From contig PAZY01000034.1 in the NCBI GenBank assembly GCA_002715765.1, positions 100,479 through 157,483 on the forward strand: a stretch of 57,005 nt of DNA, written 5' to 3'. Both the position numbers and the translations under genes were made by a program. Below the pieces are notes generated by a model. That model ran no database searches. It was not told where the DNA came from and worked only from the letters and a program-made list of their open reading frames with translations. Within the stretch, counting starts at the first letter, position 1; each line of letters opens with the position of its first letter. The DNA is from Rhodobiaceae bacterium (GTDB lineage Bacteria > Pseudomonadota > Alphaproteobacteria > Parvibaculales > Parvibaculaceae). Shown piece after piece: positions 13,821-42,100 of the stretch.

Positions 13821-15209
13821 CTAATCAACCTCTCCCATCGAAGCCAGGATTTCCGAAAGAAGCCTGGCGCTCGATTGATCAGCACCATCAAGCTCAACAG
13901 CCTTCCGGGCGTATGGAAGCGCTTCTGCAGCGTGGCCACCCGAGAACAGACTTTCCGCAATTCTACGGTGGTAGGTTGCATTTGAGGGTTGCAACTTCAC
14001 CACCTGCTCAAAATCCGCCTTCGCAGAAGCCGGGCTTCCCAACTGGAGCATAGCCATTCCGCGCGCCATGAAGGCCTCGACGAACCCTGGATCAAGGCCA
14101 ATCGCTTGATCGTAGTCTGCGATCGCGAGGGTAACTTGGCCATCCTGAAGGTATGCATTCCCGCGATTGTTGTAAGCAACGATATAAGAGGAGTCTAGGT
14201 TGATCGCCTGAGAATAGTCGGCGATTGCCAACTGCAACTTTCCCTGCTCTCGATACGCCCGTCCCCTATTGTTGAACGCGAATGCAAAGGTCGAACTGAG
14301 CTCGATTGCACGAGAAAAATCTGAGACGGCTAACGCTAATTCTCCAAGTTCCCGGTAGAGATTCCCGCGATTATTCAGTGCGGACACCGAGTTGGGATTA
14401 ATTCTAAGGGCTTCACTGTAATCCGATATTGCGTTCTCCCGTCGACCCAACTCTCGCTGAGCGTTGCCCCTATTCAAATAGGGAAGCTGGTAGTTTGGTT
14501 GCACCTCAATCGCTTTCGTATAATCCAGAATTGCGAGATCAAACTCACCTTGTTCCTGATAAGCATTGCCTCGGCCATTAAAGGCGAAAGCATATTTTGG
14601 GTTGAGGCGGATGGCCTCAGAATAGTCGGCAATAGCACCTTCGTACTGACCGAGTTCTCGTTTGACGTTTCCTCGTCCATTGTATGAAAACACAGAACCG
14701 GGGTCTAACCGGATAGCCTCATCATAGTCCGAGATGGCAAGCTCCGGCTTATTGATTTCGCGATACAGCGAACCTCGACTTATGTATCCATTGGAAAGAT
14801 AAGGTTCGATCCGGATAGCGTCACTATAGTCGGACAAGGCCATGTCCAGCTGACCTAGTTGCCGATAAGCATTACCCCGAGCGAGATAGAGCACACCTGC
14901 GTTATGCCCAATTTGGATGGCGGAGGTAAATGCCTCTACAGCCTCTTTGAACCTTCCTTGCTTCAAGTGGGCTTTTCCCTTCTCCCAGTGCCCAAACTGT
15001 TCAATCAATTCGCGTTCTGAAGGTTGTTCTGGGTTACCACACCCGACGCTGGATTCAACTCCGCACGACCTCGTGGCACCGCCAATATCAGAAGACTCCC
15101 GAGCTTGTGCTGTGGCTACCAGCGCTAAGACAGCAAAAGCCGATGCCCAACCGAACACGATGCATACATTTGAGCCAAGCCGCCCACCATGGTCCACAGA
15201 TCTCATCAT
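13821..15209 (-). CDS. Exported tetratricopeptide-repeat protein
   Basis: 462 residues. A hydrophobic N-terminal segment (VCIVFGWASAFAVLALVATAQA) is a signal peptide or anchor. From about residue 75 there are about ten to eleven consecutive 34-residue TPR units with the pattern RGNAYRELGQ...AISDYSEAIRLNP. Many repeats are nearly identical, including AISDYSEA, which points to recent internal duplication. The start overlaps the end of czcA by 4 bp, so it belongs to the czcCBA transcription unit. TPR arrays bind proteins. A scaffold for the efflux complex in the periplasm is a reasonable guess, but it is not a standard Czc component. Confidence 0.88.
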   Translation of the reverse strand: MMRSVDHGGRLGSNVCIVFGWASAFAVLALVATAQARESSDIGGATRSCGVESSVGCGNPEQPSERELIEQFGHWEKGKAHLKQGRFKEAVEAFTSAIQIGHNAGVLYLARGNAYRQLGQLDMALSDYSDAIRIEPYLSNGYISRGSLYREINKPELAISDYDEAIRLDPGSVFSYNGRGNVKRELGQYEGAIADYSEAIRLNPKYAFAFNGRGNAYQEQGEFDLAILDYTKAIEVQPNYQLPYLNRGNAQRELGRRENAISDYSEALRINPNSVSALNNRGNLYRELGELALAVSDFSRAIELSSTFAFAFNNRGRAYREQGKLQLAIADYSQAINLDSSYIVAYNNRGNAYLQDGQVTLAIADYDQAIGLDPGFVEAFMARGMAMLQLGSPASAKADFEQVVKLQPSNATYHRRIAESLFSGGHAAEALPYARKAVELDGADQSSARLLSEILASMGEVD

Positions 15210-18200
15210 AGCGAAGCCTCCTGGTTAGCCGAAGCATAAGCGCTCTGGTGAGTGAGCTGCCATTCTGCCAGTTTTGCTCGTGAAAAAGTTCGATAGAGTG
15301 TCGGCAGGACGAAGAGTGTCAATGCCGTTGATGAGACGAGGCCCCCAACGACAACTGTCGCCAATGGACGTTGAACCTCGGACCCAACACCGCTGGACAG
15401 CAGCATCGGAATAAGCCCCAGAGCTGCTATCGACGCCGTCATCAAGACAGGTCGCAAGCGGGATACGGCACCGGAAAATACCGCCATATCCAAAGTCTGC
15501 CCGCCCAAAACATTCTGGTTTATCGCGCTGACCATGACGACCCCATTTAGGACGGCAACACCAAATAGAGCAATAAAGCCAATCGAACCTGGAACAGATA
15601 GATATTGTCCGGTCAAAAGAAGAGAAAATATCCCTCCGATAAGGGCCAACGGTACGTTCACCATAATGAGAGCCGCTTGGCCAACCGATCCAAACGCAAA
15701 ATAGAGCAACAGAAATATGAGGGCTAGAGACAATGGTACAACGATCATAAGGCGGGCTTGCGCCCGGGCCTGATTTTCAAATTGCCCGCCAAAAACCACG
15801 GTATAACCGGCCGGAAGGTCAATCTCTCGAGAAATCCGATCTCGCAACTCAGTGACCAACCCGCCCATGTCACGACCTTCGACGTTGGTCTGAATGACAA
15901 TACGACGTTGCACGTCATCACGCCTTACCTGTGGAGGCCCGGCCTCGATTTCGACACTTGCTACTTCGTTGAGCCTAACCCACGCGCCTCGAGGAGATTT
16001 CAAAATTAGACCTCGGATCGCTTCCGGACTGGACCTGAACTGTTCAGCTAAACGAACATATATGTCATACCGTTCGTTCCCACGGATAACCTGGCCGGCC
16101 TCCTCGCCACCGATTGCGGCAGAAACGAGGTCCATCACCGCATCAACCGACAATCCATAGCGAGCAAGTTTATCTCTATCTGGACGAATAACGAGTTGTG
16201 CCTCTCCGGCGATCTGCTCCATCGCAACATCACGCGTTCCTTGAGTATCGCGCACCAGTGCTTCGATCTCCCCACCCTTCTCCGCGAGAACATCTAGATC
16301 CGCTCCGAAGAGTTTGACGGCAAGTTGTGCCTTTACGCCCGAAAGAAGCTCGTCAACACGCGTAGCAATTGGCTGCGAAAATGAAAACAGTAGTCCTGGA
16401 TGAACTGATAATTTTTCCTCCATCAAGTTTTGGAGTTCAAATCGATTTGTTGCTGATACCCATTCAGAGACCGGCTTTAATCCGACATAAATCTCGACGT
16501 TGGATACAGGTTCCGGGTCTCCGCCTAGTTCAGGTCGACCAATTCTGCTGGACGCATAAATAACCTCGGGGAATTCAAGCAGAATTTTCTCCAGCTTTTC
16601 AGCGACAGCCAGTGATGTGTCGAGACTTGACGAAGGCGCGAGTGTGACGCGAATGTTGATTGTACCTTCCTCAAGCTCCGGCACAAATTCAGTCCCGAGA
16701 AATGGAACCGCCAAAAGCGAAAGCACAAGCAAAGCGACCGCACTTGAGACTACTTTCTTTTGGCTCCGGAGCGCGCCGGTAAGAGTCTTCTTGTATAGTT
16801 TTTCCAGAGGTCGAAGCACGGGGCTTTCTCGATGTTTAACGCCCCCGCGAAAGAGATATGTCGACAGAGCAGGGACTACAATTAGCGCAACAAGCAATGA
16901 GGCGATCATTGCCAGGACAATGCTGACTGCCATTGGTTGAAACAGTTTTCCCTCCACGCCTTCAAGCGAGAACAGTGGAGCAAATACAACAATGATGATG
17001 AGGACGGCATAAAAAACAGGACTCCCCATTTCACGAGCTGCCTCTTGTACTCTCAGCTGCAATCCGTGCGGTTGCACCCCAACTGATGCCGCTGTTTCAT
17101 CGGCACCTACGTCATCATCCGGCTTTGTTAAATGACTAAAAATGTTCTCCATCATCACTACCGAGCCATCGACCATCATTCCAATGGCGATCGCGAGACC
17201 ACCAAGCGACATAAGATTGGCGGAGACGCCCCAAATCGACATCACCATGAGCGCGAGACCGATGGAGATGGGAACAGAAATGAGCACAAGAACTGTTGCA
17301 CGGAAGTTCATCAAGAAAAGTGCCAAGACCACGATAATCAGAATGAATGCCTCAATAAGCGCTCGGCTAACCGTGCTTACCGCTTGATCAACGAGATCAG
17401 CTTGGTCATATATAGGCTCTAGAATGACACCGTCCGGCAGCGCGAGCGCTACGGTTTTCAACCGATCTTTGACACTGTCAATTGCAACTTTCGTGTTTGC
17501 TCCTAGCCTTTTCAAAACGACACCAAGAACAACTTCGCCCAATTGTTGCGGATTACCATCTGCATCTCGAATTGTTAGCGTCGTTGCACCTTGGCGAATT
17601 TCGCCTCCCAGTTCGACCGTCGCTACATCGGAAATACGTACGACGAAGCCATCTTCTTCTTTGACCGGGACGTTTCCGATATCTCTCAGACCGTCGTCGC
17701 CACTGCGAACCCAGCCAACACCACGAATAACAAGTTGTTCAGCGCCCCGATCGAGATACCACCCACCAGAATTCCGGTTGCTTTCTTCTATCGCCTCACG
17801 CACATCGTCAACTTCGAGATCAAAAGAGAGAAGCTTCCGCGGATCAATATTTACCTGGTATTGCAACACATCGCCGCCGAAGGAAAGAACATCCGTGATG
17901 CCATCCACCGGCATCAACAAGAGCTTCACAACCCAGTCGTTAAGGCTACGCAATGTCTTGATATCGAATTGTCCGGGCTCTTCAGCGCGCAACACATATT
18001 GGAAAATCTGACCTAGCCCTGAAGTGTTAGGACCCATTTCCGGAGTTCCAACCCCATCAGGAATCTCATCCATTGCTGCTTGCAACCGTTCGAACACAAG
18101 CTGGCGAGCAAAGTAAATGTCGGTTCCTTCTTGGAAAACCACCGTAATTACGGAGAGCCCCGTTTTCGAGATCGAACGCACTTCTTGTACATCTGGCAAA

Positions 18201-18424
18201 GCATACATCACCGCCTCGATAGGGTAAGTGATGAGCTGTTCAACCTCTTCGGAAGCCAAACCGCGAGCCTCTGTGTTGATGGATACTTGCACGTTTGTGA
18301 CATCTGGGAATGCATCAAGATTGAGGTTCGGAAGGACCAGAACACCACCAACACATGCCGCCGCCAGGCTTAAGACAACCAGAAGTCGGCCACGTATGCT
18401 TAGATCAATTATGCTATTGAGCAT
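15206..18424 (-). CDS. czcA: Heavy-metal efflux RND pump, CzcA/CusA family
   Basis: 1072 residues, the full length of a heavy-metal RND protein: 12 membrane segments with two large periplasmic loops after helices 1 and 7. Motifs include FPDVTNVQV near the N-terminus and AIGMMVDGSVVMMEN in helix 4, which holds the proton-relay aspartate and glutamate. This helix-4 signature lies between the Czc (DFG...DGA) and Cus (AMVDAAIVMIEN) forms, so metal choice is not settled by it. With CzcB and CzcC it forms a tripartite pump driven by protons. The CDF/MerR neighbours favour Zn, Cd, Co or Ni. It follows czcB by 9 bp. Confidence 0.93.
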   Translation of the reverse strand: MLNSIIDLSIRGRLLVVLSLAAACVGGVLVLPNLNLDAFPDVTNVQVSINTEARGLASEEVEQLITYPIEAVMYALPDVQEVRSISKTGLSVITVVFQEGTDIYFARQLVFERLQAAMDEIPDGVGTPEMGPNTSGLGQIFQYVLRAEEPGQFDIKTLRSLNDWVVKLLLMPVDGITDVLSFGGDVLQYQVNIDPRKLLSFDLEVDDVREAIEESNRNSGGWYLDRGAEQLVIRGVGWVRSGDDGLRDIGNVPVKEEDGFVVRISDVATVELGGEIRQGATTLTIRDADGNPQQLGEVVLGVVLKRLGANTKVAIDSVKDRLKTVALALPDGVILEPIYDQADLVDQAVSTVSRALIEAFILIIVVLALFLMNFRATVLVLISVPISIGLALMVMSIWGVSANLMSLGGLAIAIGMMVDGSVVMMENIFSHLTKPDDDVGADETAASVGVQPHGLQLRVQEAAREMGSPVFYAVLIIIVVFAPLFSLEGVEGKLFQPMAVSIVLAMIASLLVALIVVPALSTYLFRGGVKHRESPVLRPLEKLYKKTLTGALRSQKKVVSSAVALLVLSLLAVPFLGTEFVPELEEGTINIRVTLAPSSSLDTSLAVAEKLEKILLEFPEVIYASSRIGRPELGGDPEPVSNVEIYVGLKPVSEWVSATNRFELQNLMEEKLSVHPGLLFSFSQPIATRVDELLSGVKAQLAVKLFGADLDVLAEKGGEIEALVRDTQGTRDVAMEQIAGEAQLVIRPDRDKLARYGLSVDAVMDLVSAAIGGEEAGQVIRGNERYDIYVRLAEQFRSSPEAIRGLILKSPRGAWVRLNEVASVEIEAGPPQVRRDDVQRRIVIQTNVEGRDMGGLVTELRDRISREIDLPAGYTVVFGGQFENQARAQARLMIVVPLSLALIFLLLYFAFGSVGQAALIMVNVPLALIGGIFSLLLTGQYLSVPGSIGFIALFGVAVLNGVVMVSAINQNVLGGQTLDMAVFSGAVSRLRPVLMTASIAALGLIPMLLSSGVGSEVQRPLATVVVGGLVSSTALTLFVLPTLYRTFSRAKLAEWQLTHQSAYASANQEASL

Positions 18425-18433
18425 TGTCGGCTC

Positions 18434-19660
18434 CTAATGGTTGTGAATATCGAAGCCGCCCTTGGCGAGTTCGGATTGAAGGAAAAACGCGCCGGAGACA
18501 GCGATCGACGCCCCCTCTCGGATACCTTCGATTACAGTCCATTCGCCGATGACGCGCTGGCGCTCTACTTCCACAGGTTTCAAGCCACCATCATCATCTT
18601 GTTCAAAGATGACCCAATCACCATCGGGGCTGCGTACGAGCGCGTCACTCGGCACTGCGAGCACTGGCTCGCCATTTGCCCCATTTTCGACTTCAGCTTG
18701 AACGAATTGTCCCGGTCTCAGGTTCCGATCTAGATTTGATGCAAGAATTCTTACATCAACTGTTCGCGTCTCTTCATCGACCGTTGAGCGAACTTGTTCC
18801 ACCACGCCTTTCTGAGTGCCGTTTTCGTACCGAACCCACGCGCGACCACCAACGTTGACCGTGTTTGCGTCATCAATCTCCAGTCTCGCAATAACCCAGA
18901 CGCTGTCTAGGTCAACGATCTCAAACAACTTCTGCCCGGGTTCGATAAGCTCACCATCTCTGAAGTTGTCCGAAATGATCACCCCTACTTGGCCCGCCAA
19001 CAGGGTGAATTCACCAAGAGAGTGAGCCCTCGGTTCTTTTGAGGAGGTAATAGCGTCAACGGCATCTTGCCCTAGTCCATAGGAGAGAAGCTGTGCTTCA
19101 GCCTGTTGACGAGCCACCTGGGCTTCGAGGTAGCGCCTTTCCGATACAACTTCACGACCGAGCCGACGCACACGACGCCACTCCCGATCTGCCACCAGCA
19201 GCTCGCCTTCTGCGTCCGCAACATCGCGACTAAACAAGGTGACGAGAGGATCTCCAACCTCAACAGTTTCGCTCAAACGCTTGTGGCGATTAACAACAAT
19301 CGCCGGTACACGTGGCGTTACAATACTTGAATTGTAGGCGTTTTCTTTGATCTCCGCCGGAACAGTGATGCTATTGCTCAGAACAACTGGCGCCAAAACT
19401 TCAATGCGAACGCCAGCGGCACTCAGGCTTTCTGCAGCGAGAATGAGTTCCTGTCCCCCTTCACCCTCTTCATCGTGTCCATCCACCTGTGGAGCCGGAC
19501 TGTCTGCATGATCGGAAGATTCATCGTGATCTGCCTCGTCAGCATGGGCGTGAGCATCATCTCCATCCGCCGTTCCCTGTTCTCCACTGATCACTGCATA
19601 CATCCCGAGTGATACAATCAGGATGAGGCCTACCAAAGCGGCCAGAAATTTTTGGTTCAT
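18434..19660 (-). CDS. czcB: Periplasmic adaptor subunit of metal efflux pump, CzcB-like
   Basis: About 408 residues. After an N-terminal anchor (MNQKFLAALVGLILIVSLGMY) comes a His/Asp-rich segment (HAHADEADHDESSDHAD, about 36-78) typical of metal-collecting CzcB proteins, then a membrane-fusion-protein body with barrel-sandwich hybrid and beta-barrel domains. The frame is open to 19726, but the ATG at 19660 overlaps the czcC stop as ATGA, the usual coupled arrangement, and gives a normal N-terminus. It links CzcA to CzcC across the periplasm. Confidence 0.92.
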   Translation of the reverse strand: MNQKFLAALVGLILIVSLGMYAVISGEQGTADGDDAHAHADEADHDESSDHADSPAPQVDGHDEEGEGGQELILAAESLSAAGVRIEVLAPVVLSNSITVPAEIKENAYNSSIVTPRVPAIVVNRHKRLSETVEVGDPLVTLFSRDVADAEGELLVADREWRRVRRLGREVVSERRYLEAQVARQQAEAQLLSYGLGQDAVDAITSSKEPRAHSLGEFTLLAGQVGVIISDNFRDGELIEPGQKLFEIVDLDSVWVIARLEIDDANTVNVGGRAWVRYENGTQKGVVEQVRSTVDEETRTVDVRILASNLDRNLRPGQFVQAEVENGANGEPVLAVPSDALVRSPDGDWVIFEQDDDGGLKPVEVERQRVIGEWTVIEGIREGASIAVSGAFFLQSELAKGGFDIHNH

Positions 19661-20889
19661 TGTTCCATTCCGATCCATTTTTCGACGACACCGGCTGCTT
19701 CCAGTAACTGAAACCAGGCGGTCCACGCCTGGCCTTGTAATTCAATGGAGGAATTTTGCGCGTCATAAATCTGCTGTAGCTGGACGAGATATTCGACCGC
19801 TCCAATGTCGCCGCCTCGTAAGCGTCTCTCGAGCAAATCAGTCTGCTGAGCAAGTGCATCCTCACCGTCCTTCTGCCAAAGGACCTGACTGGTTCGCAAT
19901 GCTTCATACCGACGAGCGGTTTCCCGCAAAAGGGCCGTCGCTGAGTGCTGTGCGCTTTGTAGTTCTGCTGCTGCAGAAACAGCCTCCGCACGCGTAGCTG
20001 CTACCTCTGAACGACCGGTATTCAAAACAGGAATTGGAATCGATACACTAAAGCCAAATAAGTCGGAGCCCCCTTCGTCCCCCCAACGCACCCCGATGGA
20101 GGGGTCTGGAACGCGCTCCCACTGTGCGACTTTGACTTCCTGCTCAGCCGCATCGCGGACAAAACGCGCGGCTAAAACAGCTGGCAAGCGGTCAACGTCC
20201 ACTTCTTCGATACTCAGTGGTTCTGGCAACGCTCGCCCAAAACGCGGCCAGGCCATGGACTTGGTACCGGTCAGTTCGGCAAGTTCTTGTTCTGCCCTAG
20301 ACAGTTCAGCCACGGCAAATTGCTCTGCCATGGAAGCTTGAGCGGAGGCCACACGGGCCGCCTGAACTTCAGACGGCGATATATCACCCTCCCTTGAGAG
20401 TTTTTCCGACAGCTCCACAAATCGAGACATGGCTTGCTTGCGCGTTGACGTAAGCTGCAGCGCATCTCTACGCTGATCGACCAGAACAAGCCCCGAAAGG
20501 ATACTTGCTATTACCCGCTGCCGAACACTTGCAAGCTCCAATGCGGCACTTTCTGCCCTGCTGTCTGCAGCTCGACCGCGTGCAGCTGGCTTGGAAAGCC
20601 ACTCAATGGTCTGAGAGACGCCAACCGTCTCAGTACGGACGTCAGTATTTTCTCTCTCGTATTCTATTTCAGGGTTGTAGCGCCAGAGACCTGCGCCTTC
20701 GGCCCGGGCTTGCGCTGCTTTCAACCGCGCTTGTGCCGATGCGACAGACGGGTTTTCGTTAAGTATGTTAGCAACGATGGCGGAGAGCGCGGTTCGTTGT
20801 TGCTCGTCGGTTTCTGAGGGAGCAGCAGCATTGGCTGATCCGACAGACAGGATGACAAAAAGCCACCCCGTCGTGATTAAACGAAACAT
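19657..20889 (-). CDS. czcC: Outer-membrane factor of metal efflux pump, CzcC-like (TolC family)
   Basis: 410 residues with a signal peptide (MFRLITTGWLFVILSVGSANA) and two repeated TolC-type helical segments, each starting around NPSVASAQARLKAAQARAEGA and VPDPSIGVRWGDEGG. This is the outer-membrane channel of the Czc pump. It is first of the three pump genes and overlaps czcB by 4 bp. A CzcI-like gene and two GC-rich hairpins precede it. Confidence 0.92.
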   Translation of the reverse strand: MFRLITTGWLFVILSVGSANAAAPSETDEQQRTALSAIVANILNENPSVASAQARLKAAQARAEGAGLWRYNPEIEYERENTDVRTETVGVSQTIEWLSKPAARGRAADSRAESAALELASVRQRVIASILSGLVLVDQRRDALQLTSTRKQAMSRFVELSEKLSREGDISPSEVQAARVASAQASMAEQFAVAELSRAEQELAELTGTKSMAWPRFGRALPEPLSIEEVDVDRLPAVLAARFVRDAAEQEVKVAQWERVPDPSIGVRWGDEGGSDLFGFSVSIPIPVLNTGRSEVAATRAEAVSAAAELQSAQHSATALLRETARRYEALRTSQVLWQKDGEDALAQQTDLLERRLRGGDIGAVEYLVQLQQIYDAQNSSIELQGQAWTAWFQLLEAAGVVEKWIGMEQ

Positions 20890-20972: not shown

Positions 20973-21287
20973 TTAATAGCGAGGGGGTTTTTCAGTCCGA
21001 GCGAACAATTCGAAGCGAGACGGGTTGTCTTTGCCTTGATGTGTAGGCGTTAAATTGCCAATCCAAAGGGTGCCCGAAGATTCAGGGTGTAACGGTACTG
21101 GAACACAATGACCGCAATGCTCAGCGCTTCGTCCCACAATGGGCAGAACGCCATTACCGCTTTCATCATCTATTAGTTGAGTTGATGCAGCCGTATCCAA
21201 GACCTGAAAATGGTCTTCGACGGCAAACGTACTTACCGGCGCGATGAACAAGGCCAGCAATACGGTTAAGATGAACATCTGTCTCAT
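20973..21287 (-). CDS. Small periplasmic CzcI-like protein
   Basis: About 104 residues. The frame is open to 21356, but MRQMFILTVLLALFIAPVSTFA starting at 21287 is a clean signal peptide, so that start is chosen. The mature part has one short metal-binding-like motif AEHCGHCVPVPLHP. Small exported Cys/His proteins ahead of czcCBA are called CzcI in Cupriavidus and are thought to modulate expression of the pump. Sequence similarity to CzcI is confined to the general layout, so the name is tentative. It is the first gene of the czc transcription unit. Confidence 0.65.
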   Translation of the reverse strand: MRQMFILTVLLALFIAPVSTFAVEDHFQVLDTAASTQLIDDESGNGVLPIVGRSAEHCGHCVPVPLHPESSGTLWIGNLTPTHQGKDNPSRFELFARTEKPPRY

Positions 21288-21612
21288 GAACTGCACAATA
21301 CGGATGAAACCAAAAACGTCAATCCCCTGTGTCCGACCTCCATACCAACCGAACAACGAAGTTTGACAGCACCCATCATAGAATTGACTTCGTGCGTGCC
21401 ATCATCCCGTTTCGTTATTGTGTTAACATAAAATAGAAAATCCGGTGATCGGGTCTATCTATTTTGGCTGGGCCTTGAGGACACTTTGTCCTGTTGGAGC
21501 TGGCCGAGAGCGCCCGGAAGAGGCGGAATGTGCCCCACAAATGTGTTCCATATCGCGGAGCAACATTCGCGGCGCAGAAGTGCACGAGAGAATAATTGGA
21601 CTTTCTGGGAGG

Positions 21613-23180: not shown

Positions 23181-23648
23181 TTATCGCTTGCGCCAAACAC
23201 AACCCATCCACAAAAAATAGACGGGCGGCAAGATCAACCATTGGGCCATCGGAGAAAGTCCAATGGCCACCTCGCCCACTCTGATTAGTGGCATCAAATC
23301 CGAATAATCCCAGGATTTACGGATATATACGTTCAGCCATTCACTAAAGACTGTGTATCCAAAGCCAATCATAACCGCACCGAATGCTGTTATTCTTTGC
23401 CGCGCCAACCCGCCACGTGGCCGCCCAGTTAGACGGATTAGGAAAATCGATGCGACCAAAGACGATAAGCCTATCAGGACATCACCGCCCGTACAGTGGA
23501 GCACGGCAAAGACAATCGCGTTAAACCGTTCAGTCCAAAGAGTGTATAAAGGAAGCTGAGCAACTTCCCATAAGAAGTTGGAAACGCCCATGTAGACAGC
23601 GTACAAGAACCAGAAGCGTGGCGGGTATTGATGGATTTCTTCAGACAT
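23181..23648 (-). CDS. Small polytopic membrane protein, copper-regulon candidate
   Basis: About 155 residues with four predicted membrane helices (FLYAVYMGVSNFLWEVAQLP, GGDVLIGLSSLVASIFLI, ITAFGAVMIGFGYTVFS, MAQWLILPPVYFLWMGCVW). No named family is recognised. The open frame begins at 23672, but that ATG lies inside the CueR operator; ATG at 23648 is the likely start, almost at the predicted transcription start, so the mRNA may be leaderless. It is divergent from the RND gene at 23745 and shares the operator. Conserved-looking polar residues inside helices (N, E, H) could serve in transport. Confidence 0.7.
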   Translation of the reverse strand: MSEEIHQYPPRFWFLYAVYMGVSNFLWEVAQLPLYTLWTERFNAIVFAVLHCTGGDVLIGLSSLVASIFLIRLTGRPRGGLARQRITAFGAVMIGFGYTVFSEWLNVYIRKSWDYSDLMPLIRVGEVAIGLSPMAQWLILPPVYFLWMGCVWRKR

Positions 23649-23660
23649 GTCGATCAAGGC

Positions 23661-23687
23661 TAGACCTTCCACCTGATGGAAGGTCTA
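23661..23687. promoter_or_regulatory. CueR-type operator, perfect dyad, divergent promoter
   Basis: TAGACCTTCCA, CCTGA, TGGAAGGTCTA: perfect 11-bp arms containing the CueR core ACCTTCC...GGAAGGT. In both directions TAGACC lies 19 bp from a -10-like hexamer (TAGTGT toward the RND gene, TAGCCT toward the membrane protein), the long spacing that CueR corrects by DNA distortion. Confidence 0.85.
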
Positions 23688-23744
23688 GTGTTCTGTCCCC
23701 TTGTCCGAGAGATCTGACGCATACACCTATCGGAGCGAAGACGA

Positions 23745-26069
23745 ATGCTGGAACGTTTTTCAAACACTATAGTCACCCGCCCCCTTCTTATCGTATTCGT
23801 AATCGTCCTCATTGCGTTGTCTCTCTCCGTTCCGATCACCCAACTAGGGATGACATCTGATTACCGGGTTTTTTTCTCGCCAGAGAATCCTGAACTGGTC
23901 GCCTCTGACCGGTTCGAGCGGACCTATACCAGCAACGACACCGCCCTCATCGCGGTCAAACCGAAGACAGGTGATATCTTTCAAAACGACGTCCTCACCT
24001 TGTTGGTAGATTTGACTGATAAGAGCTGGACGCTGCCGCATGTCATCCGAGTCGATTCACCTATCAATTTTCAAAGAATTGAGGCGCAAGGCGACGACAT
24101 CATTATCGGCGATCTTGTTCCGCAGCCAATACCGAGAGATGAGGAAGATCTGCTACTATTGCGGGAAACCGCCCTCGCGCAGCCTCTTATCGTTAAAAGG
24201 CTTTTGTCAGAAGATGCGACGACAGCTGGCATCCTGCTGACCCTAAAGTTTCCCGGGAGCGATCACTCACGCCACGTGCCTGAGTCCATCCGTGCCATCC
24301 GGTCCCTCGTATCAGAATTGGAGACTCGCCACCCAGATATTCAGTTTGCGGTCACCGGCATGGCGCCGCTCACCTACGCCATGGACGAAATCACATTGCG
24401 CGAGCTCACGATTCTGCTACCAGGTATGCTGCTCGTGCTCACGTTTGTTCTTACGCTTCTTCTCCGAAGTCTAACGGCGGTCGCCGCCACTCTTATTGTT
24501 GTCGCCCTCTCAGCTACCTCGGCTATGGGGTTCGCCGGGGTGATCGGCATTAAATTGACAACGGTCTCCGTGGTCGCGCCAATAATCATCCTTACAGTTT
24601 CAGTTGCCGACAGCATACATTTGATAAGCTCCCTGCTCGAAGAACGACGAGATGGAAAGGACCTATTGTCCGCGATATCTGAATCCATGCGAGTCAATTC
24701 TGAACCTATTTTCCTCACAAGTCTAACTACGATGGTCGGCTTCTTGAGCCTCAATTTTTCCGAGTCTCCTCCTTTTCGCGACCTAGGAAATATCACAGCT
24801 GCCGGCGTCATTGTTGCTTGGGTGCTTTCGATGACGCTGCTCCCAGCGTTGCTCGTATTGTGGGGTATCCGGCAGCCCAACAGAAGATCGCGTGAAGCAG
24901 ATTGGCTTTTTCGGCTTGCCGATTCCGTGGTCAATCGGCGGCGACTGGTTCTCGTCGTAGCTGTCCTGCTGACAGCTGGTTCAGTTGCGAGTGTGCCCCT
25001 GAACAAGCTCGACGATAGATTTCTGCTATGGTTTGATAAAAGCATGAAACCTCGAGCCGACGCGGACTTTGTGACGGAGAACCTCACTGGGCCTTATCAG
25101 ATTGAGTTTTCACTTTCATCATCCCAGACACAGTCAGTTACGGACCCAAAGTACCTTAAGGATGTTGAAGCATTTGGTGACTGGCTCACCGCACAGCCAG
25201 GCGTGTCTCATGTTTATAGCCTGCCTGATGTCATGAAGCGTTTGAATCAAGCAATGAACGCAGGTGATCCACGTTTCTTTGTGCTCCCGGACAGTGCCGA
25301 TCTCGCCGCTCAATACCTGCTACTTTATGAATTCTCCCTCCCTTATGGATTGGATCTCAACACTCAGATCAATCTCAATAAGTCCGCTTCGCGGCTAACA
25401 GTAACGACGCTCGGCATTTCCTCAGCTGAGACGCGTGACTTGGCCCGCCGGGCTGAAAACTGGATCAGATCAAATGCAGATTATATCTCGCCGTCTGAAG
25501 GCACAGGGACCTCGGTCATGTTTGCCTTTGTCTCCAAAAGGACAATCGACAGCATGTTGGTTGGGACGGCAGTCGCGATCATACTGATCGGGATCACTAT
25601 CCTTGTGGCGCTCAAGAGCCTTAAGATCGGACTCATAAGCATGTTGCCGAACATCCTGCCCGTAACGATAACATTTGGTATCTGGGGGCTCTTGGTCGGC
25701 GAGATCGGGATTATCGGCTCAACCATTGCCGCATCGACGCTTGGCTTAGTCGTCGACGATACCGTTCATTTTCTCAGCAAATACCATCGCGCGCGGGAAG
25801 AACACGGACTGTCCACTCATGATGGCATCCGGTTCGCCTTTGAGCATGTTGGTCGGGCAATGTTAACCACGACTTTTGTCTTAGCGGCTGGCTTCTTCGT
25901 GCTCACATTTTCAGATTTCCTTCTCAATTGGCAGATGGGCGTTCTGACGATGATGACCATTTTCGCAGCCCTGATTCTGGATTTTTTCCTGTTACCAGCT
26001 CTCCTGATGGCGGTTGATCGTGAAAAAACCTGCGATTGCGCCACATGCCGAGTGCATGCGCTGGCATAG
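23745..26069 (+). CDS. RND superfamily (MMPL/SSD-type) exporter in copper regulon
   Basis: 774 residues, 12 predicted membrane helices in two halves, each with a periplasmic domain after the first helix. Features include VADSIHLISSLLEERRDGKD and VVDDTVHFLSKYHRAREEHG, the paired helix-4/helix-10 segments with acidic residues found in MMPL/hydrophobe-type RND proteins. It is not a CzcA-type metal pump by length or motifs. The C-terminus ends EKTCDCATCRVHALA, a CxCxxC-like cluster that could bind Cu(I). GGAG precedes the ATG at 23745. The CueR operator upstream strongly suggests copper induction. No periplasmic adaptor or outer-membrane partner is beside it. Confidence 0.9.
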   Translation: MLERFSNTIVTRPLLIVFVIVLIALSLSVPITQLGMTSDYRVFFSPENPELVASDRFERTYTSNDTALIAVKPKTGDIFQNDVLTLLVDLTDKSWTLPHVIRVDSPINFQRIEAQGDDIIIGDLVPQPIPRDEEDLLLLRETALAQPLIVKRLLSEDATTAGILLTLKFPGSDHSRHVPESIRAIRSLVSELETRHPDIQFAVTGMAPLTYAMDEITLRELTILLPGMLLVLTFVLTLLLRSLTAVAATLIVVALSATSAMGFAGVIGIKLTTVSVVAPIIILTVSVADSIHLISSLLEERRDGKDLLSAISESMRVNSEPIFLTSLTTMVGFLSLNFSESPPFRDLGNITAAGVIVAWVLSMTLLPALLVLWGIRQPNRRSREADWLFRLADSVVNRRRLVLVVAVLLTAGSVASVPLNKLDDRFLLWFDKSMKPRADADFVTENLTGPYQIEFSLSSSQTQSVTDPKYLKDVEAFGDWLTAQPGVSHVYSLPDVMKRLNQAMNAGDPRFFVLPDSADLAAQYLLLYEFSLPYGLDLNTQINLNKSASRLTVTTLGISSAETRDLARRAENWIRSNADYISPSEGTGTSVMFAFVSKRTIDSMLVGTAVAIILIGITILVALKSLKIGLISMLPNILPVTITFGIWGLLVGEIGIIGSTIAASTLGLVVDDTVHFLSKYHRAREEHGLSTHDGIRFAFEHVGRAMLTTTFVLAAGFFVLTFSDFLLNWQMGVLTMMTIFAALILDFFLLPALLMAVDREKTCDCATCRVHALA

Positions 26070-26093: not shown

Positions 26094-26124
26094 TTGACCT
26101 TCCACCTAGTGGAAGCTTCATATT
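26094..26124 (+). promoter_or_regulatory. CueR-type promoter for the copAB oxidase operon
   Basis: TTGACC (26094-26099) and CATATT (26119-26124) with a 19-bp spacer TTCCACCTAGTGGAAGCTT. The dyad is ACCTTCCAC...GTGGAAGCT with one mismatch. Transcription would start near 26131, so the downstream gene's start must be later than 26134. Confidence 0.85.
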
Positions 26125-26160
26125 CATCGTCCTATGTGCTCAGAACCCAGCAGATTCGCT

Positions 26161-26553
26161 ATGCACTTGCGTCGATTGACACTCGTTTTGGTGTGCGCAA
26201 TTTTCGTCACCGCGCCGCTACAGCGCGCTTATTCCCATGTTCCGGCGGCCGGGAACATCCAGACGTCAAGCCAGACTCAAGCTTCAGATATTGACGCTCG
26301 CTTACACGACAACATGCTGCACCACTCGCCTCGTCAAAGGGACGCTGGCGAAAACAATCACCAAAATACCCCAGGATGCTGCCCCACTGACCATCCTTCA
26401 CAAACGCCGACTTTTTGTGCCGACTGTCTAGTTGTTGGGATATTGGATACCCCGCCTGCGAGCCAGGCGTCCCGACTGGTTGATGTGGCGACACGCAGAA
26501 CCTTTGCTCAAAGCGTCGACTTTGCCGGCGACGCTCCGGTGCCCAAAAGTTGA
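26161..26553 (+). CDS. Small exported Cys/His protein, first gene of copper operon
   Basis: About 130 residues. The signal peptide MHLRRLTLVLVCAIFVTAPLQ begins at 26161; an upstream ATG at 26134 is almost at the predicted transcription start and adds nothing signal-like. The mature part has a His-containing segment (RLHDNMLHHSP) and the motif PGCCPTDHPSQTP followed by FCADCLVV, with two cysteine pairs. It resembles the small DUF2946-type proteins found in copper operons, but I am not certain of the family. Probably a periplasmic copper-binding or sensing accessory. It is followed by the multicopper oxidase gene after 81 bp. Confidence 0.6.
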   Translation: MHLRRLTLVLVCAIFVTAPLQRAYSHVPAAGNIQTSSQTQASDIDARLHDNMLHHSPRQRDAGENNHQNTPGCCPTDHPSQTPTFCADCLVVGILDTPPASQASRLVDVATRRTFAQSVDFAGDAPVPKS

Positions 26554-26634
26554 CCAGATAGATAGCCGACCTTGCAGCTAACAGGACGGCACTTGTTTGG
26601 CGCATCGCGCCTAGGTAACTTTTGGAGATACACA

Positions 26635-28557
26635 ATGACTATGAACATCAGATCGTGCGCGTTCGTTGCCCTGCTGGCAATGACAGGCACAGCAAATGCT
26701 GGTGAGTACACGCTTTCGATCGATGAGACGCGCGTGAACTTTACCGGCGCCGAGGCAGACGCCCTGGCGATCAACGGCAGTATCCCTGCACCCTTATTGC
26801 GTTTTACGGATGGTGAAGACGTCACCATTCACGTGACAAACAATTTGGACGAAACATCGTCCATTCACTGGCACGGACTCTTAGTGCCACCGGAGATGGA
26901 CGGAGTCCCCGGCATCAGTTTCGATGGCATTCCGCCTGGCGAAACATTCACCTACCGTTTTCCCATCCGGCAGACCGGCACCTATTGGTATCACTCGCAT
27001 TCAGGCTATCAGGAGCAGGAAGGCATCTATGGCCCCATGATTATTGATCCCATAGGTCCAGACCCGGTCGCATATGACAGAGAGTTTGTTGTTCTTCTAT
27101 CTGATTGGAAAGATGATGACCCTGCAGACGTGCACGCCAACCTGAAGGCTTCCAGCGACTACTATAATTATGCTCAAAGAACGGTGTTTGATTTTTTCGA
27201 CGATGTTTCCGAACGCGGATTGGGCGCTACTGTAGAAGATCGGCTCGCATGGGGTGAAATGCGAATGATGCCGACGGACCTATCCGACGTTTCTGGCTAT
27301 ACCTTTCTCACGAACGGCCAAACAACCGAAGCCCCATGGACGGGTCAGTTTGTACCAGGTGAACGGGTTCGCCTGCGGTTTATTAACGGCGCTGCCATGA
27401 GCTATTTTGATATCCGCATTCCTGGCTTACAGATGGAAGTGGTGCAGACTGACGGACAGAATGTTGTTCCAGTCACGGTTGATGAATTCCGTATCGCCGT
27501 CGCGGAGACCTATGACGTTGTCGTTACACCGCAGGAAGCTGGACCCTACCAAATTCTCGCTGAATCGATTGATCGGACGGGATTTGCCGCCGGCGTTCTG
27601 TCAACGCAAGAAGGCATTGGCTCAGTTACGCTCCCGCCATCACGCCCAAGATCTTTGCTAACCATGGCTGACATGGGGATGAACCATGGTGGTATGGGTG
27701 ACGAGATTTCATCGCAAGGCACGATGGACCACGCTGCTATGGGAGACGAGATGCCATCGCAGAGCACCATGGACCATGCAGCGATGGGCCAGGACATGCC
27801 ACCGCGAGGCACGATGGACCACGCTGCTATGGGACACGAGATGCCGTCGCAAGGCACGATGGACCACGCTGCCATGGGACACGAGATGCCGTCGCAAAGC
27901 ACCATGGATCATGCAGCGATGGGCCACGACATGCCACCGCAAGGCACGATGGACCACGCTGCCATGGGCCACGAGATGCCGTCGCAGAGCACCATGGATC
28001 ATGCAGCGATGGGCCACGACATGCCGCAGCAAGGCACTATGGACCACGCTGCCATGGGACATGGTGGGCCTGTCAGCAATGACGTCTTCTCACCGCCGGT
28101 TGGAGCACCTGAGGGCGCTAAAATTCTCACCTATGCAGACCTTGCGGCACTTGAACCAAACACCGACCTCAGGGAGCCTGAACGGGAAATTGTCGTCCGG
28201 CTCGGTGGCAATATGGAGCGTTACATTTGGACATTGAACGGTGAAAAATTCGCCGATGCTGGCCCAATCATGTTGCGATATGGCGAGCGCGTTAAGCTCA
28301 CCTTTATCAACGAGACCATGATGAACCACCCGATGCATCTGCACGGCATGTTTGTTGAGTTGGACAATGGTCAACCCACAGAAACCCAACCGCGCAAGCA
28401 CGTAGTAAACGTAGGACCAGGAAGAACCTACTCGGTCGATATAACCGCTGACGAAGCTGGTGAATGGGCTTTCCATTGCCACCTCATGTACCACATGTCT
28501 TCAGGCATGTTCCGTAAGGTCGTCGTGGCCAAACTCGCAGCGGAGGCAATCCAATGA
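26635..28557 (+). CDS. copA: Copper-resistance multicopper oxidase CopA/PcoA
   Basis: About 640 residues. A signal peptide (CAFVALLAMTGTANA) is followed by three cupredoxin domains. Copper motifs in order: HWHG, YWYHSHSG, HPMHLHGM and HCHLMYHMSSGM, the last giving the type 1 Cys, His and Met. Between domains 2 and 3 sits a Met/His-rich insert of eight 15-residue repeats (27697-28056). GGAGA is 8 bp before ATG 26635, which replaces the upstream in-frame ATG at 26572. It oxidises or sequesters Cu(I) in the periplasm. It is controlled by the CueR promoter at 26094 and overlaps copB by 4 bp. No twin-arginine motif is visible, which is unusual for PcoA-like proteins. Confidence 0.93.
   Translation: MTMNIRSCAFVALLAMTGTANAGEYTLSIDETRVNFTGAEADALAINGSIPAPLLRFTDGEDVTIHVTNNLDETSSIHWHGLLVPPEMDGVPGISFDGIPPGETFTYRFPIRQTGTYWYHSHSGYQEQEGIYGPMIIDPIGPDPVAYDREFVVLLSDWKDDDPADVHANLKASSDYYNYAQRTVFDFFDDVSERGLGATVEDRLAWGEMRMMPTDLSDVSGYTFLTNGQTTEAPWTGQFVPGERVRLRFINGAAMSYFDIRIPGLQMEVVQTDGQNVVPVTVDEFRIAVAETYDVVVTPQEAGPYQILAESIDRTGFAAGVLSTQEGIGSVTLPPSRPRSLLTMADMGMNHGGMGDEISSQGTMDHAAMGDEMPSQSTMDHAAMGQDMPPRGTMDHAAMGHEMPSQGTMDHAAMGHEMPSQSTMDHAAMGHDMPPQGTMDHAAMGHEMPSQSTMDHAAMGHDMPQQGTMDHAAMGHGGPVSNDVFSPPVGAPEGAKILTYADLAALEPNTDLREPEREIVVRLGGNMERYIWTLNGEKFADAGPIMLRYGERVKLTFINETMMNHPMHLHGMFVELDNGQPTETQPRKHVVNVGPGRTYSVDITADEAGEWAFHCHLMYHMSSGMFRKVVVAKLAAEAIQ
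27697..28056 (+). repeat. Eight in-frame 45-bp repeats encoding Met/His copper-binding units
   Basis: Eight tandem units of 15 codons, consensus G(D/H)EMPSQ(G/S)TMDHAAM, continue in frame with the oxidase. The copies differ by a few codons (GHEMPSQ, GHDMPPQ, GQDMPPR). Each offers about three Met and one to two His, as in other CopA Met-rich segments. Near identity in DNA indicates recent expansion by slippage or recombination. Confidence 0.95.
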
Positions 28558-29276
28558 ACATCAATAAGAAGACATACTCACTGGTGGTAGCGGGCTTCGC
28601 TCTCAGTATCACCTGGTTTGTCATACCGGCTGTTGCCGCGGAGGCAGAACCAATGTTCAAATATTTTCAATTGGAGGCTGATTATGCCGATTGGGGAAGC
28701 AATAAGCGGGAAGTGACATGGGAAGGTTCAGGCTGGTATGGCGGTGACAGCGAGAAAATCTGGGTCAAGACTGAGGGTGAATGGGGTAATGGCGACTTAG
28801 AGGAATCTGAGCTGCAGGCCCTCTACAGCCGGAACATCGCTCCTTTCTGGGATGTACAAGCAGGCCTGCGCCATGACTTCCGGCCGGACCCGACAAACTA
28901 TCTTGCTGTAGCTTTCGTTGGTCTAGCTCCCTACTGGTTTGAATTAGACACATCGCTATTCGTAAGCGACGAAGGAGACGTGAGTCTTCGAGGCCAGGCA
29001 GAATATGATCTCCTCCTCACGCAGAAGCTCATTCTGTCGCCCTACGGCGAAGTAAACATCTTTGCGAGCGATGTACCCGAGCAAGAGGTTGGTGCTGGTA
29101 TCGCCAACATCGACACTGGGCTCCAGCTCAGATATGAAATCAGAAGAGAGTTTGCTCCCTATATCGACTTCAACTATGTCGGTCTGTTTGGCGAGACTAA
29201 ATCTCTCGCCGAGGCAGACAACAAAGATGCGAACGACTTTACGGTTCGTCTTGGTGTCCGGTTCTGGTTGAATTAA
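28554..29276 (+). CDS. copB: Copper-resistance outer-membrane protein CopB/PcoB
   Basis: 240 residues with a signal peptide cut after VAAEA. The body matches CopB: FKYFQLEADYADW, EWGNGDLEESELQALYSRNIAPFWDVQAGLRHD and a C-terminal barrel ending in RLGVRFWLN. It lacks the long Met/His-rich N-terminal extension of many CopB proteins; that function is carried by the repeats in the oxidase. It overlaps the oxidase gene (ATGA) and ends 24 bp before a strong terminator, so the unit is small protein-copA-copB. Confidence 0.92.
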   Translation: MNINKKTYSLVVAGFALSITWFVIPAVAAEAEPMFKYFQLEADYADWGSNKREVTWEGSGWYGGDSEKIWVKTEGEWGNGDLEESELQALYSRNIAPFWDVQAGLRHDFRPDPTNYLAVAFVGLAPYWFELDTSLFVSDEGDVSLRGQAEYDLLLTQKLILSPYGEVNIFASDVPEQEVGAGIANIDTGLQLRYEIRREFAPYIDFNYVGLFGETKSLAEADNKDANDFTVRLGVRFWLN

Positions 29277-31174: not shown

Positions 31175-31205
31175 ACTCTCCAGCTTCCAGTGGGAGGAAG
31201 GTCAA
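31175..31205 (-). promoter_or_regulatory. CueR-type promoter for the cupredoxin gene
   Basis: On the minus strand TTGACC (31205-31200), 19-bp spacer TTCCTCCCACTGGAAGCTG, then GAGAGT (31180-31175). Dyad AGCTTCC...GGAAGGT at 31182-31202 with one mismatch. The -10 is poor, as is common in MerR-family activated promoters. Confidence 0.75.
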
Positions 31206-31239
31206 GATCAACAAAATCTATGAGTCACACGAACAGCAC

Positions 31240-31270
31240 TTTACCTTCCAGTGGGTGGAAGGAATATCTT
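31240..31270 (+). promoter_or_regulatory. CueR-type promoter for the CopA ATPase gene
   Basis: TTTACC (31240-31245), 19-bp spacer TTCCAGTGGGTGGAAGGAA, TATCTT (31265-31270). Dyad ACCTTCCA...TGGAAGGA. Transcription would start near 31277, which rules out the in-frame ATG at 31251 and supports ATG 31311 as the ATPase start. Confidence 0.85.
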
Positions 31271-31310
31271 TCGACCTAATGCCGAATTTCTGCAGGTGGA
31301 GAACACTCAA

Positions 31311-33629
31311 ATGGACACACAGGAAACCTCAATCCAAGCCCCTATCGTGAGAGATCCAGTGTGCGGGATGATTGTGGATCGGGCAACAGCCACTCATCTG
31401 GTAAACCATCAAGGCGAGCGCTTCTATTTTTGCTCCACAGGATGTGAGACAAAATTCACCACCGATCCCGACAAATTTCTTGGTGATCGCCCCGCGCCTG
31501 AACCAATGCCAGAAGGTACTGAGTTTACCTGCCCAATGCATCCCGAGATCGTCCAAGTAGGCCCCGGCGACTGTCCTATTTGTGGCATGGCGCTGGAACC
31601 AATGGCGCCAAGCCTAGAGACCGGGCCCAACCCGGAACTAGTGGACTTCACACGGCGGATGTGGATCGGTACGCCACTCGCTCTCGCCGTCCTCTTTCTT
31701 GAAATGGGTAACCATTTCGGCGTCCCCCTGTCAGGGTTTATGGGGCCTACCCTGTTCGTCTGGATCCAAATGATTCTGACGACACCTATTATGGTTTGGA
31801 TCGCCGCACCTTTCTTTAAGAGGGGGTGGAGTTCAGTTGTTAACCGCTCGCCAAATATGTGGACTCTGATCTCCCTCGGAACGGGCGCTGCCTATCTTTA
31901 CAGCATTGTGGCCGCTGTCTCGCCCTCGCTCTTCCCGCCCGCATTCTACTACTCAGACGGAACGGTGCCGGTATACTTTGAAGCAGCTGCAGTCATCATC
32001 GTCCTTGTACTGCTTGGTCAAGTCATGGAGCTGCATGCACGCGAAAGAACGGGTGACGCCATCAAGGCACTTCTCAACCTTGCGCCGAAAACAGCACGTA
32101 AGGTGAGCGCTGACGGCAGCGAGGCCGAGATTCCACTGGATGACGTCAAATTGGGTGACCACTTGCGCATACGCCCTGGAGAAGCCGTGCCTGTCGACGG
32201 CACTGTGCTTGATGGGCGGTCCTCGGTCGACGAAAGCATGCTAACAGGCGAACCAATCCCGGTCGAAAAAGTTGAGACCGATCCCCTAACAGGTGGAACC
32301 ATCAATGGGACGGGTTCTCTGATTATGGTTGCGGAGCGCGTTGGATCCGAAACGCTCCTTGCGCAAATCGTCAATATGGTTGCTTCCGCTCAACGCAGCC
32401 GCGCGCCCATTCAAGGACTTGCCGATAAGGTTTCCAGTTATTTCGTGCCTGCGGTTATGCTCATTGCCGCAATTTCTTATGCCATTTGGTCACTTTTCGG
32501 ACCAGAGCCGTCGTCGATCTACGGCCTCGTCGCAGCCGTCTCCGTTCTCATTATCGCCTGCCCGTGCGCTTTGGGGCTTGCCACGCCTATGTCAATTATG
32601 GTCGCGACAGGCAAGGGCGCGATAAACGGCGTCCTTATCAAAGATGCTGAAGCTCTTGAGCGGTTCAGCACTGTAGACACTTTAATAGTTGATAAGACTG
32701 GAACACTGACGGAGGGAAAACCCAGATTGGCAGATGTGTGCGCGGTCGCGCCACATACGTCGAACAGGGTTCTGCAGATCGCGGCGAGCCTCGAAAGAGG
32801 AAGCGAACATCCGCTAGCGACCGCTATTACACATGGTGCAGAGACACGTGAGCTGGGCCTCACGAAAGCTGAAAATTTTAACGCCATTACGGGCATGGGG
32901 GTCACCGGCGAAATAGAAGGCAATGTTGTAGCGCTGGGCAATCTAAAACTGATGCACTCGCTGAACATCGATATTGGTAGCCTTTCAGCTAAGGCGGAAG
33001 CACTCCAGTCGCTAGGTCAAACCGTGATGTATCTCAGCTACGGCCCTTCGGTGATGGGTTATGTTGCCGTTGAAGACCCGATCAAGGAAACAACGCCTGA
33101 GGCCATCCAATCCCTCCATAAACTGGGCATGAAAGTTATCATGGCGACCGGCGACAATATTCGAACCGCAAAAGCCGTGGCAGATCGGCTCGATATTGAC
33201 GATATCCGCGCCGATGTCATGCCTGAGGATAAAGCTGCCCTGGTAGCAGAGCTCAGATCGCAAGGCCGCGTCGTCGCTATGGCCGGAGACGGGGTGAATG
33301 ATGCGCCAGCACTTGCAGCAGCGGATGTCGGTATTGCCATGGGCACGGGCGCCGATGTTGCTGTTGAAAGCGCCGGTATTACCCTTGTAAAGGGCGACCT
33401 CACTGGGGCGATCAGAGCGAAAGCTCTGGCGACAGGCACAATGCGCAACATTCGCCAGAACCTGTTTTTTGCTTTTGTCTACAACGCGGCCGGTGTGCCA
33501 ATTGCTGCAGGTGTGCTTTATCCTTTCTTTGGCATCCTGCTGTCGCCGATACTAGCCGCCGCGGCCATGAGCCTTTCATCCGTATCTGTCATCGGAAATG
33601 CCCTTAGGCTGCGGAGGATCAAGCTGTGA
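31311..33629 (+). CDS. copA: Cu(I)-exporting P1B-type ATPase CopA
   Basis: About 772 residues. In place of a classical CxxC heavy-metal domain the N-terminus has a YHS domain (DPVCGM ... [11 protein letters not shown]) followed by a second zinc-ribbon-like metal-binding motif (CPMHPEIV ... CPICGM). Eight membrane helices follow, with CPCALG in helix 6, DKTGTLTEG for phosphorylation and [10 protein letters not shown] in the hinge. It pumps Cu(I) from cytoplasm to periplasm. The start is fixed by the CueR promoter upstream. It overlaps cueR by 4 bp, so the regulator is made from the promoter it activates. Confidence 0.95.
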
Positions 33630-34027
33630 ACATCTCTGAAGCGTCAGAACTTGTAGGCATACCACCGAAAACGATCCGATATTATGAAGGTATCGGACTC
33701 ATTTCGTCTCACCGCTCTGAAAACGGATACCGTGTCTATGATGACCGCGACCTTCACATGCTCAACTTTTTGGGGCGAGCAAGAAGTCTAGGCTTTACGA
33801 TTGAGAGTTGCCGCTCGCTCCTTGCGCTGTATCAGGATCCCAATCGCGCTAGCGCAGAAGTCAAAAAAGTGGCGCTACAGCACATGGATGAAATTAACTG
33901 CAAGGTTGAAGAATTACAAGCGATGCGTGCGGTCCTAACAACGCTCGTGGAGAGCTGCAGGGGCGACGAACGTCCCGATTGCCCCATTCTTAAAGCCTTG
34001 TCGGCGCCCATAAGACTACACCAATAG
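33626..34027 (+). CDS. cueR: CueR/HmrR copper-responsive regulator
   Basis: 133 residues: MerR winged HTH at the N-terminus ([21 protein letters not shown]), a long dimer helix and a C-terminal loop with Cys111 and Cys119 ([10 protein letters not shown]), the C-x7-C spacing of Cu(I) sensors. The residue at the MerR first-Cys position is Ser76, as in CueR. It starts with GTG overlapping the copA ATPase stop. It is the obvious regulator for the ACCTTCC dyads at 21961, 23661, 26097, 31182 and 31243. Confidence 0.93.
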
Positions 34028-41198: not shown

Positions 41199-42100
41199 GA
41201 TGCCTCATAACACTGGACTATGAGAGGTTTGGCTCGCTCCAGGTCTTCATGCGTTGCGACCGTGACCTCCAGATCACCCGTTCCAAAATGTCCAACTGAT
41301 CGGACGTCGCGGGTGAACCCTTCCTCCAACTCGAACTTCGCGGGGTCGAGTTTCAAATAGATGCGGACCACATTGAGTTGCGGTTTCACGTCGACGCAAG
41401 CAAAATTTTTGATCCGGCGGAAGGCAAAATAATATCGCAATGTCTTTTGCGTCACGTCATCCCCCAAACCAAGTAGGAATGTCTCAAGGTCAGAATAGAG
41501 GGCGGCAATTTCCGATTTCGCGCTGGCCAGCCCCATTGAAACTGTCTTGTATTGTTGTATTTTTTCGTCTGACACCGCCGCAGTGATAGCCGCCGAGGGC
41601 ACCGAAACAGAAGTGAGGAGATCAAGAAGCAAAAGGCCATCGCCAAACCGCCTATACCGAATAAGCTCGATATTTCGTCCCATTTGATTGACCGCGTGAG
41701 TGTCATACTTCGTGAAATCAGCGGCGATACAGACAAGACGGGGCGCGCTCCATTCGATCTTGTCAGCTTCTTCTTTGCCGTATTTGTCCCTAACGAGTAA
41801 CTCGAAATCGCCGCGATGATCCATCAGCCAGTCGAGGTAAAAGAGGCCCTGATTGATGATGTTCTCATTTCGATCCCGCTTATATTCGATGATGACCGGG
41901 TACCCGTTCTCATCAACCCCTAGCGTATCCATGCGACCACCATTGGTTGTCGTATACTCCGAGGCCAGGAAACGAACACCAAGAAGCGTTTCTAGATTTT
42001 TCTCAAACAGTGTTTGAAGTGTCTTCTCGAGGGGTGATGAACTGCTCGCAAGTTCCGTTAGCGACGTGCCGCCAAGTTGAAAGAGCTTAATGTCGCTCAT
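41195..42100 (-). CDS. DUF5655 protein with nuclease-like N-terminal domain
   Basis: 301 residues. The N-terminal half contains NGGRMDTLGVDENGYPVIIEYKRDR, an Asp and E-x-K separated as in PD-(D/E)xK nucleases of the NucS/RecB type, followed by an INQGLFYLDWL helix. The C-terminal half (LRYYFAFRRIKNFACVDVKPQ ... VRIYLKLDP ... VRSVGHFGTGDLEVTV) matches DUF5655. It overlaps hsdS upstream and hsdM downstream by 4 bp each, so it is fully built into the restriction operon. It may cut DNA on its own or adjust restriction. Confidence 0.85.
   Translation of the reverse strand: MSDIKLFQLGGTSLTELASSSSPLEKTLQTLFEKNLETLLGVRFLASEYTTTNGGRMDTLGVDENGYPVIIEYKRDRNENIINQGLFYLDWLMDHRGDFELLVRDKYGKEEADKIEWSAPRLVCIAADFTKYDTHAVNQMGRNIELIRYRRFGDGLLLLDLLTSVSVPSAAITAAVSDEKIQQYKTVSMGLASAKSEIAALYSDLETFLLGLGDDVTQKTLRYYFAFRRIKNFACVDVKPQLNVVRIYLKLDPAKFELEEGFTRDVRSVGHFGTGDLEVTVATHEDLERAKPLIVQCYEAS

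Follow-up and report, generated by a model that had tools for sequence, protein, structure and literature searches.

At 23181-26069 of a 57,005-nucleotide stretch of Rhodobiaceae DNA (contig PAZY01000034.1; hereafter the window), a palindrome of the type recognized by the copper sensor CueR separates an RND exporter gene from a divergent gene for a small membrane protein. What would a copper sensor achieve by switching on this exporter? A preliminary description of the locus, made from the sequence alone, took the two proteins for a pair and proposed that the exporter moves copper or a copper-damaged lipid. We used family models, structure models, and comparisons of related genes and their neighborhoods to evaluate these proposals. 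The locus comprises the following features.

23181..23648, minus strand: four-helix membrane protein, 155 aa (ATG at 23648 is the best start; model pLDDT 88)
23660..23688, no strand assigned: perfect CueR dyad, CTAGACCTTCC-N7-GGAAGGTCTAG, within a CueR-type promoter that is symmetric and probably bidirectional
23745..26069, plus strand: RND exporter of the HAE3/MMPL kind, 774 aa, 12 TM helices (by Pfam, NCBIfam, and structure model)
26016..26066, plus strand: C-terminal cytoplasmic tail of the exporter, DREKTCDCATCRVHALA, with CxCxxC (C763, C765, C768)

A CueR dyad shared by two divergent genes

The dyad is as perfect as first described and slightly longer: the palindrome covers 29 bp with 11-base arms, two bases more than originally given. 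Its core, ACCTTCC-N7-GGAAGGT at 23664-23684, is the single zero-mismatch match in the window, where base composition predicts 0.0002 perfect cores. Six window sites had three or fewer mismatches, compared with a mean of 2.0 in shuffled sequences, and a count of six was reached in one of 100 shuffles. The complete genome G003 contains one perfect CueR box genome-wide, which is the exporter dyad, and two one-mismatch boxes, both within the copper island; the complete genome G005 gave the same picture, its one perfect box again being the exporter dyad. The expected frequency, the shuffles, and this uniqueness in two complete genomes rule out a chance origin.

The four-helix gene (minus strand) and the exporter gene (plus strand) flank the dyad, and each is transcribed outward. 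A predicted promoter runs across it on either strand (TAGACC-N19-TAGTGT on the plus strand, TAGACC-N19-TAGCCT on the minus strand), and the exporter gene is thus preceded by the combination that marks members of the CueR regulon, a box with a 19-bp spaced promoter. The ATG of the four-helix gene lies a few bases past its predicted -10, and the mRNA is therefore probably leaderless. The dyad occupies the same position in the window, G003, and G005. In G005 (L059 8727-8786) the palindrome extends to about 20 bases per arm and includes both -10 elements, so that this promoter is bidirectional and symmetric throughout. The exporters of the window and G005 differ by a dS of about 2, meaning saturated synonymous sites, and a dN of 0.10; since the box has stayed intact over this distance, with a longer palindrome in G005, we conclude that it is under selection.

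The exporter is a partnerless member of the HAE3/MMPL kind

The exporter had been judged not to be of the CusA type, and family models agree. It matched Pfam MMPL with E = 5e-37 and 128 bits (gathering score 20.5) versus E = 9e-4 and 17 bits for the CusA/CzcA model TIGR00914 (cut-off 701), which rules out a CusA-type pump. The best NCBIfam match was HAE3 TIGR00921 (6.6e-51), at 173 bits below the cut-off of 351.9. By sequence, the protein is thus HAE3-like, MMPL by Pfam, and a divergent relative of TIGR00921. No adaptor or outer-membrane factor gene adjoins it, as the preliminary description had noted; the genes around it are those for the four-helix protein, an acyltransferase, and CopAB. With a mean pLDDT of 86, the AlphaFold model of the exporter shows 12 membrane helices, and the nearest PDB folds are MmpL3/4/5, HpnN, and NPC1, which are carriers of lipids, sterols, and siderophores. 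The gene is under purifying selection. The same genome encodes two closer paralogues, at 41% and 36% identity. A search of genome contigs with the exporter found one close relative, in Parvibaculaceae bacterium Mf 1.05b.01, and otherwise remote archaeal and clostridial matches.

Within the HAE3 group (COG1033), HpnN exports hopanoids and works without an adaptor or outer-membrane channel, and AmeD of AmeABCD exports monoterpenes and affects monoterpene tolerance and dye efflux (PMC6394551). The exporter resembles both in size, 12-helix RND plan, family models (TIGR00921/TIGR03480), and predicted fold, but it alone has the CueR box, the CxCxxC tail, five extra His, and the copper island around it; LolA-like and outer-membrane partners accompany the AmeD lineage but not this exporter. 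It shares the RND superfamily and a copper context with CusA/CzcA but is rejected by their family model, has no CusB/CusC partner, and is 774 rather than about 1050 aa long. Control of a non-metal-type RND pump by a CueR/GolS-type sensor has precedents: in P. aeruginosa, CueR activates mexPQ-opmE, which encodes a pump for drugs and not for copper (PMC7922089), and GolS drives the RND pump MdsABC/GesABC in Salmonella (PMC10333786). Those are tripartite drug-type systems, whereas the exporter here is one HAE3 protein that ends in a Cys tail. A copper link has also been described for Mycobacterium bovis, where deletion of the MmpL6/MmpS6 (TbD1) locus alters copper sensitivity under hypoxia (PMC9048740). 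MmpL6 is likewise an MMPL protein with a copper link but belongs to another subfamily and host group. To our knowledge, MmpL6/MmpS6 has no CueR box. Our search of a literature collection with few subscription journals found nothing relevant on CueR with MMPL exporters. The known theme is therefore CueR/GolS control of drug-type RND pumps; what is new is a Cys/His signature on an HAE3-type exporter, together with the loss of a LolA-like partner.

A clade marked by a Cys tail, five histidines, and a CueR box

Among 68 homologues collected from the order, the class, and plasmids, the exporters of the window, G003, and G005 form a clade with those of G042 and G275, two members of another family with 54% identity (SH-aLRT 100). 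This clade is separate from CusA and from the exporter's own paralogues. The C-terminal Cys cluster of the preliminary description proved to be a clade character: all five alphaproteobacterial members finish DREK-x-C-x-C-x-T-C, compared with none of the 63 other homologues having three Cys there, and this conservation rules out C-terminal noise. The tail is placed on the cytoplasmic side by RND topology and the 12 helices of the model, in which it is disordered (pLDDT <50) with no metal site visible. Five His are also clade-specific, H174 and H177 in the periplasmic porter domain and H687, H692, and H701 next to the tail on the cytoplasmic side, the last three placed by RND topology from the model's helices and family knowledge. 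Neither the porter domains nor the membrane-helix cores contain a clade-specific Met or Cys; the clade-specific Cys are all in the tail, and the conserved Met 261, 592, and 604 are common to sister families.

The best upstream CueR box has 0, 0, 0, 1, and 3 mismatches in the five clade members versus 4-7 in all other homologues, so four of the five have a box with at most one mismatch. The fifth, G042, has a degenerate box with three mismatches, and its exporter lies between copB-side genes and a Cu-ATPase. The G275 exporter has no copper gene nearby, yet a one-mismatch box stands in front of it with TTGACC-N19-TATCTT.

Searching more widely, we found the tail pattern in the window only among 398 genomes of the phylum and in two of three genomes in the order of G042. 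A search of 321 putative gammaproteobacterial genomes added one clade member, G993, which is 47% identical and has all eight residues (three Cys and five His); its exporter has neither a CueR box nor copper genes near it. G856 has the five His and lacks the Cys tail. The residue signature and copper control are therefore separable. G953 falls in a wider group (SH-aLRT 98), has one of the five clade His, and is separated from a CopA-type oxidase by about 2 kb; read by eye, its exporter gene (L229) adjoins a cyclopropane-fatty-acid-synthase-like gene. On plasmids, no copper-linked exporter was found in the two best exporter matches that were examined (38-40% identity), both of which lack the Cys tail and are accompanied by LolA-like partners. 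The clade is rare, with five alphaproteobacterial members and one gammaproteobacterial member in about 1580 genome searches, a sample in which some genomes were searched repeatedly. Because one clade means one origin, the correlations among tail, box, and LolA-like partner are not independent events.

The missing partner is seen best against the sister family of MMPL exporters with LolA-like genes (PF17131), which the tree places in the same lineage at 39-47% identity. There, a LolA-like gene directly follows the exporter in 31 of 36 loci, and the Cys tail is absent throughout the family, as is any CueR box with three or fewer mismatches. By contrast, no LolA-like gene was found beside the exporter in the four alphaproteobacterial relatives or anywhere in the window. 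In G993, the LolA-like frame retains its second half only and overlaps the Cys-tail end of the exporter (L227 7883-8311). Each Cys-tailed member is thus without an intact neighboring LolA-like gene, a correlation that comes from one lineage and not from independent events.

The surrounding copper island

The island encodes its own CueR, a copper ATPase, the CopA oxidase, and CopB, and has three further one-mismatch CueR boxes (26097, 31182, 31243).

26097..26117, plus strand: second CueR box, one mismatch, TTGACC-N19-CATATT; precedes the Cys-rich small protein and copA, and is kept in G003 and G005
26134-26553, plus strand: small secreted Cys/His protein preceding copAB
26629-28557, plus strand: multicopper oxidase CopA (TIGR01480, 733 bits)
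28554-29276, plus strand: CopB (Pfam CopB, 1e-74)
31182..31263, no strand assigned: two CueR boxes, one mismatch each, between a cupredoxin gene (minus) and the Cu-ATPase gene (plus)
31251..33629, plus strand: copper-translocating P-type ATPase (TIGR01511, 585 bits)
33626..34027, plus strand: CueR with the Cu(I) loop C-RGDERPD-C (C-x7-C) (TIGR02044, 158.9 bits, cut-off 147.4)

A true CusA is encoded separately from the exporter in the same island, at 15206-18424, and the CusABC set at 15206-20889 belongs to that other RND gene. Two small secreted Cys/His-rich proteins without a Pfam family precede copAB (26134-26553) and the CusCBA set (20973-21356), with the motifs CCPTDHP...CADC and EHCGHC. 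The CopA oxidase contains about eight tandem Met/His-rich repeats at 27686-28070, TMDHAAMGHEMPSQ-like, and the other open frames over this stretch are apparent artefacts of the repeat. At 4142-7188, two small copper-oxidase/nitrite-reductase-like genes, recognized by eye, enclose two c-type cytochromes and may form a second copper-enzyme cluster. Beyond the copper genes, a type I restriction set (39753-46361) and two tyrosine-recombinase-like genes (49228-55060), also recognized by eye, suggest a mobile island.

The four-helix protein belongs to copper/thiol operons

The divergent gene product remains as unnamed as the preliminary description left it: neither Pfam nor NCBIfam assigns it to a family, and PDB searches with its sequence and its fold found no match, which gives no ground for placing it in DsbB/VKOR or another named four-helix family. 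The gene is under purifying selection, and 25 positions, including W27-E28, H51-C52-x-x-G-D56, and S102-E-W-x-N106, do not vary across 28 sequences. With one conserved Cys, the protein has no redox pair.

We compared about 8 kb around the gene in 32 loci from Alphaproteobacteria, including plasmids, with 35 control loci. Multicopper oxidase genes were found in 19 of the 32, TlpA, DUF411, and CcdA in 16 each, a copper ATPase in 15, and SCO in at least 15, with CcdA often the very next gene; the same classes were near zero in the control loci. CueR adjoins the four-helix gene at one conjugative plasmid locus. One alphaproteobacterial operon recurs (L136, L138, L163-L181) in the order multicopper oxidase, DUF411, TlpA, SCO, four-helix protein, CcdA, and looks like a copper-linked thiol relay of which the four-helix protein is the unassigned part. 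None of the 32 other loci has the exporter nearby, and in the distant clade members L115 and L116 no four-helix gene lies near the exporter, which rules out an obligate pair outside the genus. The pairing first proposed thus lost its support beyond the genus, and these neighborhoods point to a copper/thiol-operon protein that in this genus was placed under the exporter's dyad.

Proposed mechanism and alternative explanations

Sequence comparison strongly supports the view that CueR controls this RND exporter, which is not of the CusA type, has no partner, and ends in a Cys cluster that looks functional. We read it as a CueR-induced, lipid-type (HAE3/MMPL) exporter of a hydrophobic envelope compound, probably copper-gated and not a Cu(I) pump, and give this reading a probability of about one half. 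Cytosolic Cu(I) would load the island's CueR and turn on the symmetric promoter, so that the exporter and, in the opposite direction, the four-helix gene would be transcribed; here the binding site is read in the sequence, and activation is expected from CueR biology. Judging by its predicted fold, the exporter may then use the proton gradient to drive a hydrophobic or amphiphilic compound from the inner membrane to the periplasm without a LolA-like carrier, as HpnN does. Candidate cargoes are lipids, intact or damaged, and lipophilic toxicants, an expectation set by the HAE3 exporters of hopanoids (HpnN) and monoterpenes (AmeD). The CxCxxC tail and the cytoplasmic-side His, to go by their clade-specific conservation, could be where a soft metal, Cu(I) or another, binds to switch or tune the pump. 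The four-helix protein would take part in this copper response on its own, being tied elsewhere to periplasmic thiol/copper handling, and would not be an obligate subunit. A narrower form of the gating idea, which we hold tentatively, is that Cu(I) on the tail and nearby His opens the pump to clear copper-damaged or copper-bound inner-membrane lipids; if true, this would be an envelope-repair arm of copper resistance that has not previously been described.

The half of the original proposal that had the exporter moving a lipid fits the fold better than the half that had it moving copper. Were it a direct Cu(I) exporter, the tail would capture cytosolic Cu(I) and the RND core would pass it to the periplasm, where the CopA oxidase and CopB would handle it. 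CueR control, the copper island, and clade-specific Cys/His on both sides of the membrane are what such a pump should have, but we consider it unlikely because no clade Met or Cys was gained along the membrane path, the Met that are conserved there being shared with sister families, and because the ATPase and true CusA of the island are already dedicated to pumping copper; the nearest folds, moreover, carry lipids and not ions. A general detoxification pump placed on CueR, like MexPQ-OpmE or MdsABC, would treat copper as a cue for toxic amphiphiles and give the tail no metal role. The multidrug RND pumps driven by CueR and GolS lend this some weight, as do the effects of the HAE3 protein AmeD on monoterpene tolerance and dye efflux, but it is doubtful in leaving unexplained a CxCxxC tail and five His that this clade alone has kept over deep divergence. 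It seems very improbable that the exporter and the four-helix protein are one two-subunit machine: in three genomes of the genus the two genes flank one symmetric dyad, and both are under purifying selection, but the four-helix loci elsewhere lack the exporter and the L115 and L116 exporters lack the four-helix gene.

Implications for copper resistance

Copper resistance is described as pumping, oxidizing, or sequestering the metal. CueR, a copper sensor, apparently turns on the exporter gene, and a lipid-type exporter that is induced by copper and has its own metal-like motif would add membrane protection or repair to this picture. Such an exporter would also make the effect of copper on the envelope testable through one gene, with the conserved eight-residue signature supplying exact targets for mutation. 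The four-helix family is a second unnamed part, belonging to copper/thiol operons in many Alphaproteobacteria and on conjugative plasmids. For the exporter, our results suggest that in some marine bacteria the export of an envelope compound is induced by copper and also tuned by it.
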